Position numbers and translations under genes: made by a program
Part shown: one piece after another, positions 9,288 to 38,053 of the stretch
How the letters are laid out: every line of letters starts with the position of its first letter
Position numbering within the stretch: position 1 is the first letter of the stretch
Notes under the pieces: generated by a model
Told to the model about the DNA's origin: nothing
What the model saw: only the letters and a program-made list of their open reading frames with translations
The model's database searches: none
DNA from: Halorubellus sp. JP-L1
GTDB taxonomy: Archaea > Halobacteriota > Halobacteria > Halobacteriales > Natrialbaceae
Length of the DNA stretch: 64,000 nt
Reading direction: 5' to 3'
Assembly: GCF_011440375.1 (NCBI RefSeq)
Contig: NZ_JAAOIR010000001.1
Coordinates: forward strand, 1,426,001 to 1,490,000

Positions 9288-10355
9288 CTACTCGGGTGCG
9301 TCCTCGAACTCGAACTCCGCCGACCGGTTCGTCTCCCGGAGGACGAACGGCCCGATCGCGAGCGTGCGCTTCGTGACCGTCGCGATGCGGAGGATGTACG
9401 ACACCAGTAACGCGAACGGGAACACCGACACCGCCGACGCCGCCGCGACCAGGGTTACACCCGTCGACACGCCGAGTGCCTCACCGGCGACGAAGGAGGC
9501 GCCCGACTCGAAGAACACGATCATCGACGCCGCCGTCACGAGCGCCGGCACCGCCGCGTACAGGATCGTCCGCGACAGGTTCACGAGCTCCCACTGGAAG
9601 TACAGCGTCTTGAAGTGCTCGCGAGCCGGCGCGAACAACCCCAGCGCCCGCTCCAGGTCGTCGAACGCCGCCTCGACGTCGTCCGTGCACTCCTCGGCGT
9701 ACTCCACCCGGAACCGTCGCGCGGCGTATATCTTCCGCGAATAGTCGTAGTCCAGCGCCGCGGACAGGACGTCGAACGTCCCGAACTCCGCGTCCTCGAG
9801 GTCGGACGCGACCGCGTTCGCGTTCTCCGTCACCGACGACGCGTACTCGGAGACGGCGTCGTCGAACGCCGCGCTCGCGTTCGCGTCCTCGACCGCCGCG
9901 ACGAGCGCGTCCGCCCGGTCCGCGGACGCCTCGACGAGCGCGCGCAGGAACGCCGACGGCTCCGTCGGCGCCACCGCCGGCTCCAGGACCTCTTCCGCGT
10001 CCCGGCGGAACGACAGCGCGCCCTCCATGCGCTCGCGCTGGTCGCCGACCGCACCCAGCTCCTGCGAGAGCACGAGCTGGTTCAACGTCACGACGAGCGT
10101 CACGCCCGTAATGATCGCGCCGACGAACGCCTGGAACAGCGTCTCCACGGGGTCGCCCGTCCGCAAGAACCCGACGGAGTCGACGCCCGGGACGGCGTCG
10201 ACCGCCAGCATGCTCGCGAACACGAACGCCGCGATCACGACCGCGACCACCAGTCGGTCCGCGGCCACGAGCAGCCAGAGCTTCGCCGAACTCACCGCCG
10301 CCCGCTCGCGCATCGAGTCCTCGTCGCCGCCCGACGCGTCGCTGCCCTCGCTCAT
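9288..10355 (-). CDS. conserved membrane protein, unknown function
   Basis: 355 residues. There are two hydrophobic segments near the N-terminus (about 28-52 and 72-95, VVAVVIAAFVFASMLAV and ITGVTLVVTLNQLVL). A long soluble, largely helical region of about 150 residues follows, then two more segments (about 265-325). The central part is helical and rich in Ala, Asp and Glu (ADALVAAVEDANASAAF). I recognise no catalytic motif. The topology suggests a helical domain between two transmembrane pairs. The start at 10355 is the first ATG; Met15 is an alternative. Transcribed in the same direction as pspA, whose stop is about 150 bases upstream. Confidence 0.72.
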   Translation of the reverse strand: MSEGSDASGGDEDSMRERAAVSSAKLWLLVAADRLVVAVVIAAFVFASMLAVDAVPGVDSVGFLRTGDPVETLFQAFVGAIITGVTLVVTLNQLVLSQELGAVGDQRERMEGALSFRRDAEEVLEPAVAPTEPSAFLRALVEASADRADALVAAVEDANASAAFDDAVSEYASSVTENANAVASDLEDAEFGTFDVLSAALDYDYSRKIYAARRFRVEYAEECTDDVEAAFDDLERALGLFAPAREHFKTLYFQWELVNLSRTILYAAVPALVTAASMIVFFESGASFVAGEALGVSTGVTLVAAASAVSVFPFALLVSYILRIATVTKRTLAIGPFVLRETNRSAEFEFEDAPE

Positions 10356-33459: not shown

Positions 33460-34131
33460 TCAGCGAACCGTGAACGAGCCCTCCATGCCGAGGCTCTGGT
33501 GGGGCGCGCAGTAGCACTCGTAGTCTCCGGCGGCCTCGAACGTGTGCGCGAGCAGGTACCCCTCGGCGTACGTGTCCGAGGCGCTCCCGGGCGTGCCCGT
33601 CCAATCGGAACCCTCGGGTTTCTCGCGAACGCGGACGTTGTGCCCGGTGTCCGTCCACTGCCAGTGGACGGTATCGCCGGCGTCGATCGCGAACGTCTCC
33701 GGCTCGAACCGGAACCCGTCTGGCGCGACTTCGACGACCTGGTCGGGCTCTCGCTCCTCGGGCGGCGTCGTCTCCGTCGCCGTCTCCGCGCTCCCACCAT
33801 CGGTCGTGGTTCTGTCGCCATCACTCGTGGTCGCACCGTCGTCTGTGTCCGTGGTCGTCTCACCGCCGGTGCCGTCGTCCGCCGTCGTGGCTGCAGCGTC
33901 GTCTCCGTCAGTCGAGCCGTCGATCGCTGGCGACGTGGCCGTGTCCGTCGACGTTCCGGCGTCGGGGCGATCGGGACCCCACGGGTTCGAGAGGCAACCA
34001 GCGGACGCGAGCACGAGTGACAGCGCCCCGCCCGCGCCCGCGAGGAGGCAGCGGCGACTGTGGACACCGTCGCTACCGCGACCGATGTCGCGGTCGCCGT
34101 CCGCGTCGAGGGCAGCGTCTCGGTCGGTCAT
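33460..34131 (-). CDS. halocyanin-like blue copper lipoprotein
   Basis: 223 residues from ATG 34131. A Tat-type signal (SRRCLLAGAGGALSL) leads to a lipobox (ASAGC). A Thr/Asp-rich disordered linker runs to about residue 118. The plastocyanin-like domain follows, with copper ligands in TGHNV (His), YCAPHQ (Cys and His) and LGM (Met). It would carry electrons at the outer membrane face. It is the last of four genes that overlap by 4 bases each; its ATG overlaps the stop of the 6TM gene. In this operon it is coupled to a 2Fe-2S protein and a methyl-accepting protein, suggesting redox sensing. Confidence 0.88.
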   Translation of the reverse strand: MTDRDAALDADGDRDIGRGSDGVHSRRCLLAGAGGALSLVLASAGCLSNPWGPDRPDAGTSTDTATSPAIDGSTDGDDAAATTADDGTGGETTTDTDDGATTSDGDRTTTDGGSAETATETTPPEEREPDQVVEVAPDGFRFEPETFAIDAGDTVHWQWTDTGHNVRVREKPEGSDWTGTPGSASDTYAEGYLLAHTFEAAGDYECYCAPHQSLGMEGSFTVR

Positions 34132-34802
34132 GCGTGGTCCTCCTCGCGGTCGTCGTCCGTTGGCGCGTTTCCGAGGTCGCGGAACTCGTAGGACGACCCG
34201 CTCGCGTCCGGACTGGTTCCGGTCGCGCGGTCGCCCGTGCGGGCGTCCACGAGCAACGGGACGGCGTGGACGACGCCGGTCGCCGCGAACGCCCAGTCCG
34301 GGACCGTGGAGGGAAAGAGAACGGCCGCGAGGACGACAAGTCCCGCCGCGAACGCGGCGACGAGGTACGCTGCGCGGGCGCGGTGCGCCGCGACAACGCC
34401 CGTGAGCGCGAACCCGATCGCGAGGACGACCGGCCACGGCGCCCACAGGAGCGTCCGGCCGAGTTCGGGCCCGACGAGTCCCGCCAGGGCGACGGCGTCG
34501 AGGGAGAGCGCGCCCGCGACGAGGACGCCCCACGCCCACAGGAGCGGACTGTACCGGACGTCGCGCTGGCCGGCGAGAACGCCGAGCGCGACCATCGCGA
34601 CGCTCGCGAGCGCCCAGTACCCGACGACCACGACGGCGCCGTCGACGCCGACCGTCGAGAGCGCGAACCCGGGGGTCGAAGCCAGGAACTGCGTGAGCGC
34701 CCACCCGAGCGCGCCCAGGACCGCGCCGACGACGAGGACGGCGTCGATACCGACGCCCTCCTGCATCTCCGCGTCGGTCTGGGCCGCGGCCGTGTCCATC
34801 AT
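34128..34802 (-). CDS. six-helix membrane protein of the taxis/redox operon
   Basis: 224 residues; a second Met follows at position 2. Six hydrophobic segments span about 20-185 (VLVVGAVLGALGWAL, VVVVGYWALASVAMVALG, LLWAWGVLVAGALSL, LLWAPWPVVLAIGFALTG, AYLVAAFAAGLVVLAAVLF, WAFAATGVVHAVPLL). An acidic C-terminal tail follows. There is no His pair pattern for haem and no recognised family. By operon position it may link the membrane sensor to the 2Fe-2S and copper proteins, or act as a quinone- or ligand-sensing unit. Overlaps both neighbours by 4 bases. Confidence 0.7.
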   Translation of the reverse strand: MMDTAAAQTDAEMQEGVGIDAVLVVGAVLGALGWALTQFLASTPGFALSTVGVDGAVVVVGYWALASVAMVALGVLAGQRDVRYSPLLWAWGVLVAGALSLDAVALAGLVGPELGRTLLWAPWPVVLAIGFALTGVVAAHRARAAYLVAAFAAGLVVLAAVLFPSTVPDWAFAATGVVHAVPLLVDARTGDRATGTSPDASGSSYEFRDLGNAPTDDDREEDHA

Positions 34803-35833
34803 CGCCCGTCACCCCCGGCGGTCGCGGACCCGCTCGGACCGTCGGCGGCGTAGTCGTACTCGCCCGCGTACTCCGCCGCCGTCACCACGATCTGGTCCGG
34901 GCGGTCCGACGCAACCACCTCGTCCGCATCGACACGATCCGCGGCGTCCACCGCACCGTCGACGTGCTGTCCCCAGTAGCCGTCGTGCTTGCCGACGGTG
35001 ACGTCGCCCTGGACGTGCGTCTGGCAAGCGAGCCGGAGCCCGCTCGCCGCCTCGTGGGGCGGGAGACTGAGTCGGCGCCGCTCCCGGTCTCCCATCTCGT
35101 CGACGTCGCCGTCGCAGGACACCGCGCACGTCCCGCAGAGGCCGTTCCCGCCGCAGTTCGCGACCTGCGTCACGTCGTTGTGCGGCGAGTGCCCCTCGGC
35201 GGCGAGCAGGACCGCCCGCAGCTGGTCGCCGACCTCGCACGTCACCGACGTGTCGCCGAACGTCACCGTCGGCGTCCGCCGGAACGCGGGGCTCTCCCCG
35301 TCGTACAGGAGATCGACGCTCGTCGTCAGCCAGCAGCCCGCGTACTTGCCCGCGGTCTGGCGCGCGAGCGCGAACTCGTACGTTCGGTCACCGTCGGGAT
35401 GTCGTGCGAGCACCGCCTGCGTGAACCGGTCGCCGTCGCGCTCGGCCGCGCCGCGCTCGATCGCGTCCGCGCCGACGAGCCGGTCGTACATCGGGCCGAG
35501 CAGCGTCGCCGCGAACCCCTCGAGCGAGCCGTGCGCCTGGCGGAACGACGGCGCGGCGAAGTCGAAGAGCGTCCGCACGACCGCCGGCACCGTCCCCGCG
35601 TCACGGGCCGCCCGTGCGTCCACCGTCGCCGCCTCGATTGCGTCCAGCTGCACGCGGAGCGCCGCCGCCGGCTCGAACGCCGGCGACGGACCGACCGCGG
35701 ACTCGCTCCCGTCGACGGCCGCATCCGCTCCCGCCTCGGCCGCGGCGTCCGCGGACGAATCGCCGTCGCCGTCCCTCGCCGACCGCGCGTCGGCCCCGAA
35801 CACGAACTCGGCGTCCTCCTCGGGCTCGGTCAT
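34799..35833 (-). CDS. DUF4864-like domain fused to 2Fe-2S ferredoxin
   Basis: 344 residues. Residues 1-55 are acidic and disordered. A domain at about 58-170 (RVQLDAIEAATVDARAARD, then LFDFAAPSFRQAHGSLEGF) resembles the DUF4864/NTF2-like family. A plant-type ferredoxin follows (about 180-300), with CGGNGLCGTC and RLACQ giving the four cluster Cys. It has no signal peptide, so it is cytoplasmic. The fusion puts a redox centre next to a possible small-ligand domain. The gene sits between the methyl-accepting protein and the 6TM protein, overlapping each by 4 bases. Confidence 0.8.
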   Translation of the reverse strand: MTEPEEDAEFVFGADARSARDGDGDSSADAAAEAGADAAVDGSESAVGPSPAFEPAAALRVQLDAIEAATVDARAARDAGTVPAVVRTLFDFAAPSFRQAHGSLEGFAATLLGPMYDRLVGADAIERGAAERDGDRFTQAVLARHPDGDRTYEFALARQTAGKYAGCWLTTSVDLLYDGESPAFRRTPTVTFGDTSVTCEVGDQLRAVLLAAEGHSPHNDVTQVANCGGNGLCGTCAVSCDGDVDEMGDRERRRLSLPPHEAASGLRLACQTHVQGDVTVGKHDGYWGQHVDGAVDAADRVDADEVVASDRPDQIVVTAAEYAGEYDYAADGPSGSATAGGDGR

Positions 35834-37398
35834 CGCGAGGCCTCCACGGCCGACTCCGAGCCCTCCGGCGACCGCACCGTGAACTGCTCGAGCGCCCGCT
35901 CGAGCTGGCTCGCCCCGTCAGCGAGCCAGTCCACGCGCTCCTCGATGCGCTCGATGACCGCCTCCTGCTCGCGCGCCGTCGCCGCCACGGCCGCCGCCTC
36001 CGTCGCCGTCTCCGCACCGATCTCGCGGACCGACGTCACGCTCGACCGCGCCGCCACCGCCCGCTCGGTCTGCGCGTCCGTCGCGTCGTCGATGCGCGCC
36101 GCGTCCTCCGCCGTCTCCGCGACCACCGACTCGACGTCCTCGAACGACGACAGCGCAGCCCCGATGGTGTCAGCGCCCCGCTCGAGCGCCGTCTCCGTGC
36201 GCTCGATCTCCGCCAGCGCCGCCTCCGTGTCCGCCGCGACCGACGCGAGGCCGTCCTCGATGGCGGCCGCCGCCGCCTCCGTGTCGTTCGACAGCGACCG
36301 GATCTGGTCGCCGAGGTGGGTCATGCTGCCGTCGTCGTTCGTTTTCTTCGCCTCCAGCGCCGTGTTCATCGCGAGGTGCTCGGTCTGCTCGGTCAACCCG
36401 CGGACCTGGTCCGCGAGCGCCTCCACCTCCGCGACCGTCGCCGCGAGCGACTCGATCTCGGCGACCGACGCCGCCATCCGGTCCTCGATCGTCTCCAGCT
36501 CGTCGAGCGCGTCCGTCGCCGCGGTCGCGCCCTGGCTCGACGTCGACGCCGCCCGCTCTGACTTCTCGGCGACCGCGCCCGCCGAGCGCGCGACCGTCCG
36601 CACGTCCTCGAGGAGCTGCGCCATCGCGTCGGCGGTCTCCTCCAGCTCCGCGTGCTGTGCCTCGACGCCCTCGCTGATGGACGCCGTCGCCGCCGTCACC
36701 GCCGCCGTTCCCTCCTTCGCCCGGCCCGCGTTCTCGTCGGCCGTCTGCGCGGCACCCGCGACGGACTGCGAGAACTCGCGAACCTCCGCGACCATCGTCT
36801 CCATCCGGTCCATCGTCTCGTTGAACGACGTCGCGAGCGCGTCGAACTGCGGGACGCCCGTCTCCTCGTCCATCCGTCCCGTCAGGTCGCCGCGCCGGAC
36901 CGTCGAGAGCGTCCGCGTCTGCGCGGTCGCCGTCGACGCCAGGTCGCGATTCAGGGACTCGACGGTCGCTACCTGCTCGCCGAGTTGCTCGCGTAACTCC
37001 GCGACGCTCCAGGATAGCTGGCCGACCTCGTCGCGCCGCGTCGGCTCGAACGAGCCGTCGTACCGACCGCGCTCGACAGCGCGACGCGTCTCCCGGTCGA
37101 GGTCGCGCAGCCCCGTGACGACCGACCGCTCGACGAGCGCGAACGCCACGACGATGCCAACGGCGAGCGTCGCGAACGCGAGGACGCCCCCGCGATAGAT
37201 CGCTCGTGCCTGCTCGTAGGTCGCGTCGAGCGCGACCGTCGCCTGCCAGACCGCCACGGCGACGACGACGAACGACACGCCGACCGCGGCGACGGCCGCG
37301 GTCGCGAACTTCCCCGTGAGCGACGCCCGCGGGTCCGCCCCCCTACGGACGCGCTGGCGGAGCGCCCCCACGCCTGCTCGAAGAACCCCTGTTACCAT
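35830..37398 (-). CDS. methyl-accepting chemotaxis-like protein with atypical tip
   Basis: 522 residues from ATG 37398; an in-frame start at 37449 would add 17. Two membrane helices lie at about 35-55 and 70-92 with only about 20 residues between, so there is no external sensor domain. A HAMP domain (about 95-150) and a long coiled-coil signalling domain follow. The tip that normally reads NAAIEAARAGE...GFAVVADEVR is here NTALEAKKTNDDGSMTHLGD, so the Arg/Gly core that binds CheA/CheW is lost. It leads the operon, overlapping the 2Fe-2S gene by 4 bases. It may signal by another route. Confidence 0.82.
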   Translation of the reverse strand: MVTGVLRAGVGALRQRVRRGADPRASLTGKFATAAVAAVGVSFVVVAVAVWQATVALDATYEQARAIYRGGVLAFATLAVGIVVAFALVERSVVTGLRDLDRETRRAVERGRYDGSFEPTRRDEVGQLSWSVAELREQLGEQVATVESLNRDLASTATAQTRTLSTVRRGDLTGRMDEETGVPQFDALATSFNETMDRMETMVAEVREFSQSVAGAAQTADENAGRAKEGTAAVTAATASISEGVEAQHAELEETADAMAQLLEDVRTVARSAGAVAEKSERAASTSSQGATAATDALDELETIEDRMAASVAEIESLAATVAEVEALADQVRGLTEQTEHLAMNTALEAKKTNDDGSMTHLGDQIRSLSNDTEAAAAAIEDGLASVAADTEAALAEIERTETALERGADTIGAALSSFEDVESVVAETAEDAARIDDATDAQTERAVAARSSVTSVREIGAETATEAAAVAATAREQEAVIERIEERVDWLADGASQLERALEQFTVRSPEGSESAVEASR

Positions 37399-37546: not shown

Positions 37547-38053
37547 TCAGTACGTCACCGACAGTCCGTCGCGCTGGAAGCTGTTCGTCGTGTAGTCGAT
37601 CAGGCCGACCATCTCGCGGACGGTGAGGAAGTTCGTCGAATCGTTCGACCCCTCTGGGAGGTGGTACCTGACGCCATCGGGCTCGTACTCGGCGACGATC
37701 GCCTTGTGGATCCCCGAGTGTTCGTCGAGGAGTTCGCAACGGATCGCGTCGAGGTCGTCGTTCGCGTCGTCGTACTTGTCCTCGAGGATCGCCTGCCGGA
37801 CGTCGTCCTGGGCGTCGAGACCGAGCGCTTCGGGCCGGTACGCTCGCGGTCTCCCGAAGTCGTTCGCGACAAACGCGACGAGGTCGCCCGCGACGTCGTC
37901 GTTCAGCCGTCGAACGTCCGCCACGACCGCGCTCTCGTCGAAGAACTCGACGTCGTTCCGGCGCCCCCGGAGCCGCGTCATCTCCTCGCGAAGGAGCTCG
38001 TACTTCCGGTTCGAATCCGTCGCGTCGACGTACGCGTCCACCCAGTCGGTCAT
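37547..38053 (-). CDS. conserved hypothetical protein
   Basis: 168 residues, acidic and soluble, probably mostly helical (DWVDAYVDATDSNRKYELLR, LDAIRCELLDEHSGIHKAI) with a small beta part near the end (GVRYHLPEG). I recognise no family. Codon use and composition match neighbouring genes, which supports it being real. The stop at 37547 and the methyl-accepting gene start at 37398 are 149 bases apart on the same strand. Function unknown. Confidence 0.62.
   Translation of the reverse strand: MTDWVDAYVDATDSNRKYELLREEMTRLRGRRNDVEFFDESAVVADVRRLNDDVAGDLVAFVANDFGRPRAYRPEALGLDAQDDVRQAILEDKYDDANDDLDAIRCELLDEHSGIHKAIVAEYEPDGVRYHLPEGSNDSTNFLTVREMVGLIDYTTNSFQRDGLSVTY

Follow-up and report, generated by a model that had tools for sequence, protein, structure and literature searches.

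A four-gene cassette of some salt-loving archaea, a possible redox-responsive signalling unit not described so far

Introduction

The Aer receptor of Escherichia coli is devoid of a periplasmic domain. It is a redox-linked transducer in which redox is sensed through an FAD-PAS module (PMC13059710). In Halobacterium, the pairs SRI/HtrI, SRII/HtrII, BasB/BasT and CosB/CosT associate a transducer with two transmembrane (TM) helices and a pair of HAMP domains to a distinct protein from which the stimulus comes (PMC3579733; for the two HAMP domains, PMC8144572), BasB and CosB being binding proteins (PMC3579733). Transducers 2, 3, 5, 6 and 18 of Halobacterium copurify with receptor or binding proteins associated with them, and its membrane-potential transducer, MpcT (HtrXIV), is a two-TM protein as well (PMC3579733). 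The hairpin tip is the end that binds CheA and CheW in archaeal and bacterial transducers (PMC8144572). Few surfaces in prokaryotic signalling are as well conserved as this tip of the methyl-accepting transducers (MCPs).

The present work deals with a cassette of four genes located in a stretch of 64,000 nucleotides from Halorubellus sp. JP-L1 (contig NZ_JAAOIR010000001.1, positions 1,426,001 to 1,490,000), hereafter the window. From its sequence, the cassette has the appearance of a redox-responsive signalling unit, not described so far and present in some salt-loving archaea; the literature search returned no paper describing these four genes together.

The four-gene cassette and its distribution

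The cassette is carried by the minus strand of the window and starts with an MCP-like transducer of 522 aa (37398-35830), followed by a protein of 344 aa which fuses a DUF4864-like domain to a ferredoxin (35833-34799), a six-helix membrane protein of 224 aa (34802-34128) and a halocyanin lipoprotein of 223 aa (34131-33460). Successive open reading frames overlap by 4 bases at all three junctions. The order, coordinates, content and overlaps given for these genes by the first-pass annotation all agree with the reading frames and the domain scans. An ORF of 168 aa (37547-38053, minus strand), for which Pfam gives no match, is located between carB and the cassette, and no counterpart of it is predicted at the matching place in four relatives (L033-L036). 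Directly downstream of the halocyanin gene, Halorubellus salinus possesses a gene for a PrsW-type intramembrane protease, recognized by its Pfam match (L033, 11576-12568); similar genes occur at matching places in three Haloarchaeobius loci (L034, L035 and L036) and none is predicted in the window.

Using the fusion protein as a query against 292 Halobacteria genomes, full-length ferredoxin fusions were retrieved from 9 genomes distributed among three GTDB families, e.g., those of Halorubellus salinus, Haloarchaeobius iranensis, Haloarchaeobius sp. FL176 and Salinarchaeum laminariae, and a tenth carrier (G326) was recovered by a search with the six-helix protein. The remaining matches to the fusion query in these 292 genomes were mostly separate ferredoxins or separate DUF4864-type proteins, and full-length fusions occurred exclusively in cassettes among the loci inspected. 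The co-occurrence of the four genes in haloarchaea had been set beforehand as a test, and they proved not to be scattered: all ten carriers possess the complete set, arranged in an identical order. The assessed junctions overlap by 4 bases, except for a single one which overlaps by one base. Since this order and these overlaps are retained while the identity of the cassette proteins falls to about 42%, the arrangement is not due to chance, and the order is maintained either by selection or because the genes of the unit are inherited together. The cassette is thus supported, by its sequence features, as a conserved unit with a co-transcribed appearance. In Haloarchaeobius iranensis (L035, about 9290-9470, minus strand), the six-helix gene looks frameshifted near its start, as a result of either a sequencing error or a real break. 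No conserved additional gene that would offer an output partner accompanies the cassettes.

Two genomic sites harbour the cassette, the names of the neighbouring genes having been assigned by reading their sequences. In the genus of the window and in Haloarchaeobius, it sits between carB and carA, and in the other four carrier genomes it adjoins the primase small subunit gene priS and a GINS-like gene. In cassette-free congeners, the priS-gins genes directly abut the gene found next to the cassette on its other side in the carriers, and this empty site indicates that the four genes were gained or lost together. The cassettes of the priS-gins site (L037, L038, L039 and L040) span three families and the same site is empty in the congeners L131-L135, suggesting that homologous flanks have allowed the movement, or the repeated loss, of the four-gene block.

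The transducer

The cassette MCP consists of a cytoplasmic N-terminus, a first TM helix, a loop of about 18-20 residues, a second TM helix, two HAMP stretches and an antiparallel coiled coil, the latter being co-linear with that of 21 other haloarchaeal MCPs upon alignment. Its hydropathy peaks cover residues 32-50 and 71-89, about 20 residues apart, and a loop of this size leaves no room for an external sensor, as the first-pass annotation had proposed. A FAD-binding PAS domain is similarly absent, no PAS family being matched in the Pfam scan. The HAMP match (28.4 bits for a cut-off of 25) extends over two stretches, and the MCPsignal family (PF00015) is recognized at 34.4 bits in the protein scan, where the Pfam cut-off is 34.6, and above the cut-off, at 35.5 bits, in the genome search. 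With respect to profile scores, the nine cassette MCPs range from 759 to 873 bits whereas all other MCPs of the 292 genomes reach 283 bits or less; on this basis they are a discrete family, widely separated from the remaining MCPs of haloarchaea.

No part of the cassette transducer is better conserved than its HAMP region: across five cassette lineages, the second HAMP stretch and its connector share an identity of 0.70, compared to 0.35 in other MCPs. The reverse holds for the tip, with an identity of 0.40 (0.32 in its core) across the same five lineages against 0.76 in other MCPs. The motif EAARxGExGxGFAVVADEVK, retained in the comparison set of 21 of the nearest other MCPs, as well as in the two further MCPs of the window genome, is missing from all nine aligned cassette MCPs; in the window protein, the altered tip occupies residues ~336-375 and reads EAKKTNDDGSMTHLGDQIRS at this place. 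The replacement of the CheA/CheW-binding tip, claimed from the window sequence, is therefore confirmed against the 21 other haloarchaeal MCPs. According to the alignment, the hairpin of the window protein and of most members has one residue fewer, and that of a single member two residues more. The glutamate pairs used for methylation are also mostly lost among the nine aligned proteins: inspected by eye, the SSAEEIA pair is kept in L039 exclusively, and none of the nine retains the first residue of the AEEQT pair.

The rebuilt tip is conserved within lineages and differs between them. Between the window protein and its counterpart from the Haloarchaeobius group (L034), tip identity amounts to 0.88 compared to 0.70 for the rest of the molecule, and dN to 0.076 in the tip compared to 0.209 for the whole protein. 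In every MCP region compared, dN is lower than dS, few parts evolving more slowly than the tip within a lineage, and none of the nine aligned sequences contains stops or frame breaks. The new tip, being under purifying selection within its lineage, thus corresponds to a working surface rather than to a product of decay. The output of the unit probably bypasses the standard binding of CheW and CheA. In the two deepest lineages, the tip heptads are partly near-canonical, e.g., QTNHIAINAQIEAA in Salinarchaeum, and because these parts persist, the cassette tip may bind CheW weakly.

Chemotaxis genes in the carriers

Three MCPs are encoded in the window genome, together with a full che operon in which CheW, CheY, CheB, CheA, two CheC-like genes, CheD and CheR were recognized by reading the predicted proteins. 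The co-occurrence of Che genes with the cassette was considered as a test of its output and was found uninformative: genes with CheA/CheW domains are present in 9 of the 9 carriers tested, but also in 246 of the 292 haloarchaea (84%), so that their presence in carriers decides nothing. Several carriers, including the window genome, display just two CheW-domain matches, corresponding to CheW and CheA, and hence no spare adaptor is evident for a second type of tip.

The ferredoxin fusion, the halocyanin and the membrane protein

The fusion protein, the sequence of which is devoid of an export signal, comprises an N-terminus of low confidence, an NTF2-like domain of the DUF4864 type (~47-182) and a plant-type [2Fe-2S] ferredoxin domain (~188-292). 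The ferredoxin half is readily recognized (Fer2, 27.6 bits for a cut-off of 21), with Cys227, Cys233, Cys236 and Cys270 invariant in the nine fusion proteins. The DUF4864 half, announced together with it by the first-pass annotation, is less straightforward, as the window protein scores below the cut-off for this family (PF16156, 14.6 bits for 27.1 required, E 0.04). The name is nevertheless retained, because the stand-alone haloarchaeal relatives of this domain pass the cut-off at 40-47 bits, which supports its assignment, by sequence, as a divergent DUF4864 relative; the family is not mentioned in the literature searched. In the predicted model, residues 47-182 (pLDDT about 86) form helices packed on a curved antiparallel sheet, and many NTF2-like chains match this confidently predicted domain with Z values of 8-9.3, only moderately above the background, at about 3 Å over about 105 residues; an NTF2-like fold is accordingly assigned to it. 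The ferredoxin half is poorly modelled. Stand-alone DUF4864 proteins and [2Fe-2S] ferredoxins of haloarchaea are homologues of one or the other half of the fusion; in the loci inspected, they are encoded by separate genes in unrelated neighbourhoods, with no link to an MCP.

The halocyanin resembles other members of the halocyanin/plastocyanin family by its cupredoxin domain (Copper-bind, 9.6e-15), its H-C-H ligands and an export signal of the Tat-lipoprotein type, in which a twin-arginine and a lipobox (SRRCLLAG...ASAGC) precede a Thr/Asp-rich linker and the cupredoxin domain. In the window protein, the type-1 copper ligands consist of H164, C208, H211 and an axial methionine (GHN...C-APH-QSLGM). 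The cassette protein differs from the family by a score below the NCBIfam cut-off (TIGR03102, 49.7 bits for 93.8 required) and by the axial residue, which is leucine in 8 of the 10 cassette halocyanins, the window copy keeping its methionine; the other halocyanins matched by motif in six carrier genomes all possess methionine. The replacement of the axial methionine by leucine raises the potential of blue copper sites, and the leucine of most cassette members suggests a tuning of the potential.

The third protein, predicted to form about six helices, is a divergent member of a wider haloarchaeal family. It matched nothing in Pfam, NCBIfam or PHROGs, nor in a sequence search of solved structures, and its low-confidence model (mean pLDDT 59) yielded no useful fold match. 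Cassette members share one invariant histidine (H179), not kept in all distant relatives, and no invariant cysteine. The possibility of a transmembrane electron wire was considered and is not supported, as no conserved pair of His or of Cys residues occurs; with a single invariant histidine and no invariant cysteine, the six-helix protein is not proposed as an electron carrier. A distant relative abuts a halocyanin gene at another locus (L090, 7305-8462, minus strand), with neither an MCP nor a ferredoxin.

Possible function of the cassette

A single inherited cassette, conserved metal ligands and a transducer without a sensor domain of its own, in which the HAMP region is strongly conserved and the tip rebuilt, form the basis of the reading proposed here, namely a membrane-bound, redox-coupled signalling unit of four proteins built around a repurposed methyl-accepting transducer, to which we would give about an even chance. 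The reading as a redox unit is plausible from the sequences and is strengthened by the conservation of the cassette. We infer a four-protein complex, redox as its stimulus and an output other than CheA. The six-helix protein would sit against the two membrane helices of the transducer, as sensory rhodopsin does against HtrI/HtrII, and would hold the halocyanin on the outer side of the membrane and the ferredoxin fusion on the inner one. A change of redox or occupancy state at the Fe-S or copper centre, or the docking of a partner, would shift the state of the TM/HAMP region, and the signal would leave through the altered tip towards a partner other than the standard CheA/CheW baseplate, or towards a baseplate that is poorly engaged. 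A membrane complex is suggested by analogy with the transducers that copurify with their partners (PMC3579733). Somewhat more tentatively, the cassette MCPs may represent a receptor family that left chemotaxis, the CheA/CheW tip having become an output surface that is new and specific to each lineage, with the separate [2Fe-2S] and copper proteins of the same cassette as its drivers.

As the main alternative, the cassette MCP could be an ordinary energy-taxis receptor that still feeds CheA, perhaps via mixed trimers with canonical transducers, its redox proteins providing an Aer-like or MpcT-like input. The overall length, the HAMP pair and the hairpin of an MCP are indeed retained, canonical heptads around the tip partly survive in the two deepest lineages, and another adaptor, CheV, is proposed for some receptors with particular signalling domains (PMC4742279). 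We nevertheless regard such a receptor as rather unlikely, since the most conserved CheA/CheW-binding motif has gone from the nine aligned proteins, the length of the hairpin has changed (-1 or +2 residues) and most of the methylation glutamates are lost; the CheW-domain genes of the nine carriers tested and the full che operon of the window genome, which could be invoked in its favour, lose their weight in view of the 84% of haloarchaea endowed with Che genes.

That the cassette is primarily an electron-transfer module made of the ferredoxin, the membrane protein and the halocyanin, and that its MCP-like coiled coil scaffolds or regulates this module instead of transducing signals, seems to us quite improbable. 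Two conserved redox sites, the axial leucine suggestive of potential tuning in 8 of 10 halocyanins and the six-helix relative adjoining a halocyanin without MCP (L090) would fit such a module, but the membrane protein possesses no conserved heme or metal site, the cassette includes no quinone- or NAD(P)H-binding partner, and the HAMP region is the most conserved one of the transducer, as expected of signal transmission. As for a decaying paralogue merely located beside unrelated redox genes, to which the borderline MCPsignal score and the loss of the canonical tip might point, it is hardly credible and already contradicted by the conservation data: reading frames are intact in the nine MCPs, gene order is fixed, and dN remains below dS everywhere, with a tip among the slowest-evolving parts within lineages.

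Comparison with known systems

If the proposed redox-coupled unit is real, the family would illustrate a way of rewiring receptors away from CheA, in which HAMP signalling is kept and dedicated redox subunits are gained. We know of no Fe-S/Cu-coupled transducer in archaea, and the cassette would then be the first. Like the SRI/HtrI, SRII/HtrII, BasB/BasT and CosB/CosT pairs, it associates a two-TM transducer with a HAMP pair to separate proteins, and the partner gene is adjacent to the transducer gene and conserved with it in all ten carriers, as in the SRII/HtrII and BasB/BasT type. Unlike these pairs, it has three partners, two of them redox proteins, and a transducer that has lost the CheA/CheW tip motif; its membrane partner, by any match, is not a rhodopsin. 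The cassette MCP resembles MpcT as a two-TM, energy-related transducer (PMC3579733). No Fe-S, copper or six-helix partner is known to us for MpcT. Aer shares with the cassette MCP the link to redox and the lack of an external sensor, but senses through its own FAD-PAS, whereas the redox centres of the cassette are carried by proteins separate from the transducer.
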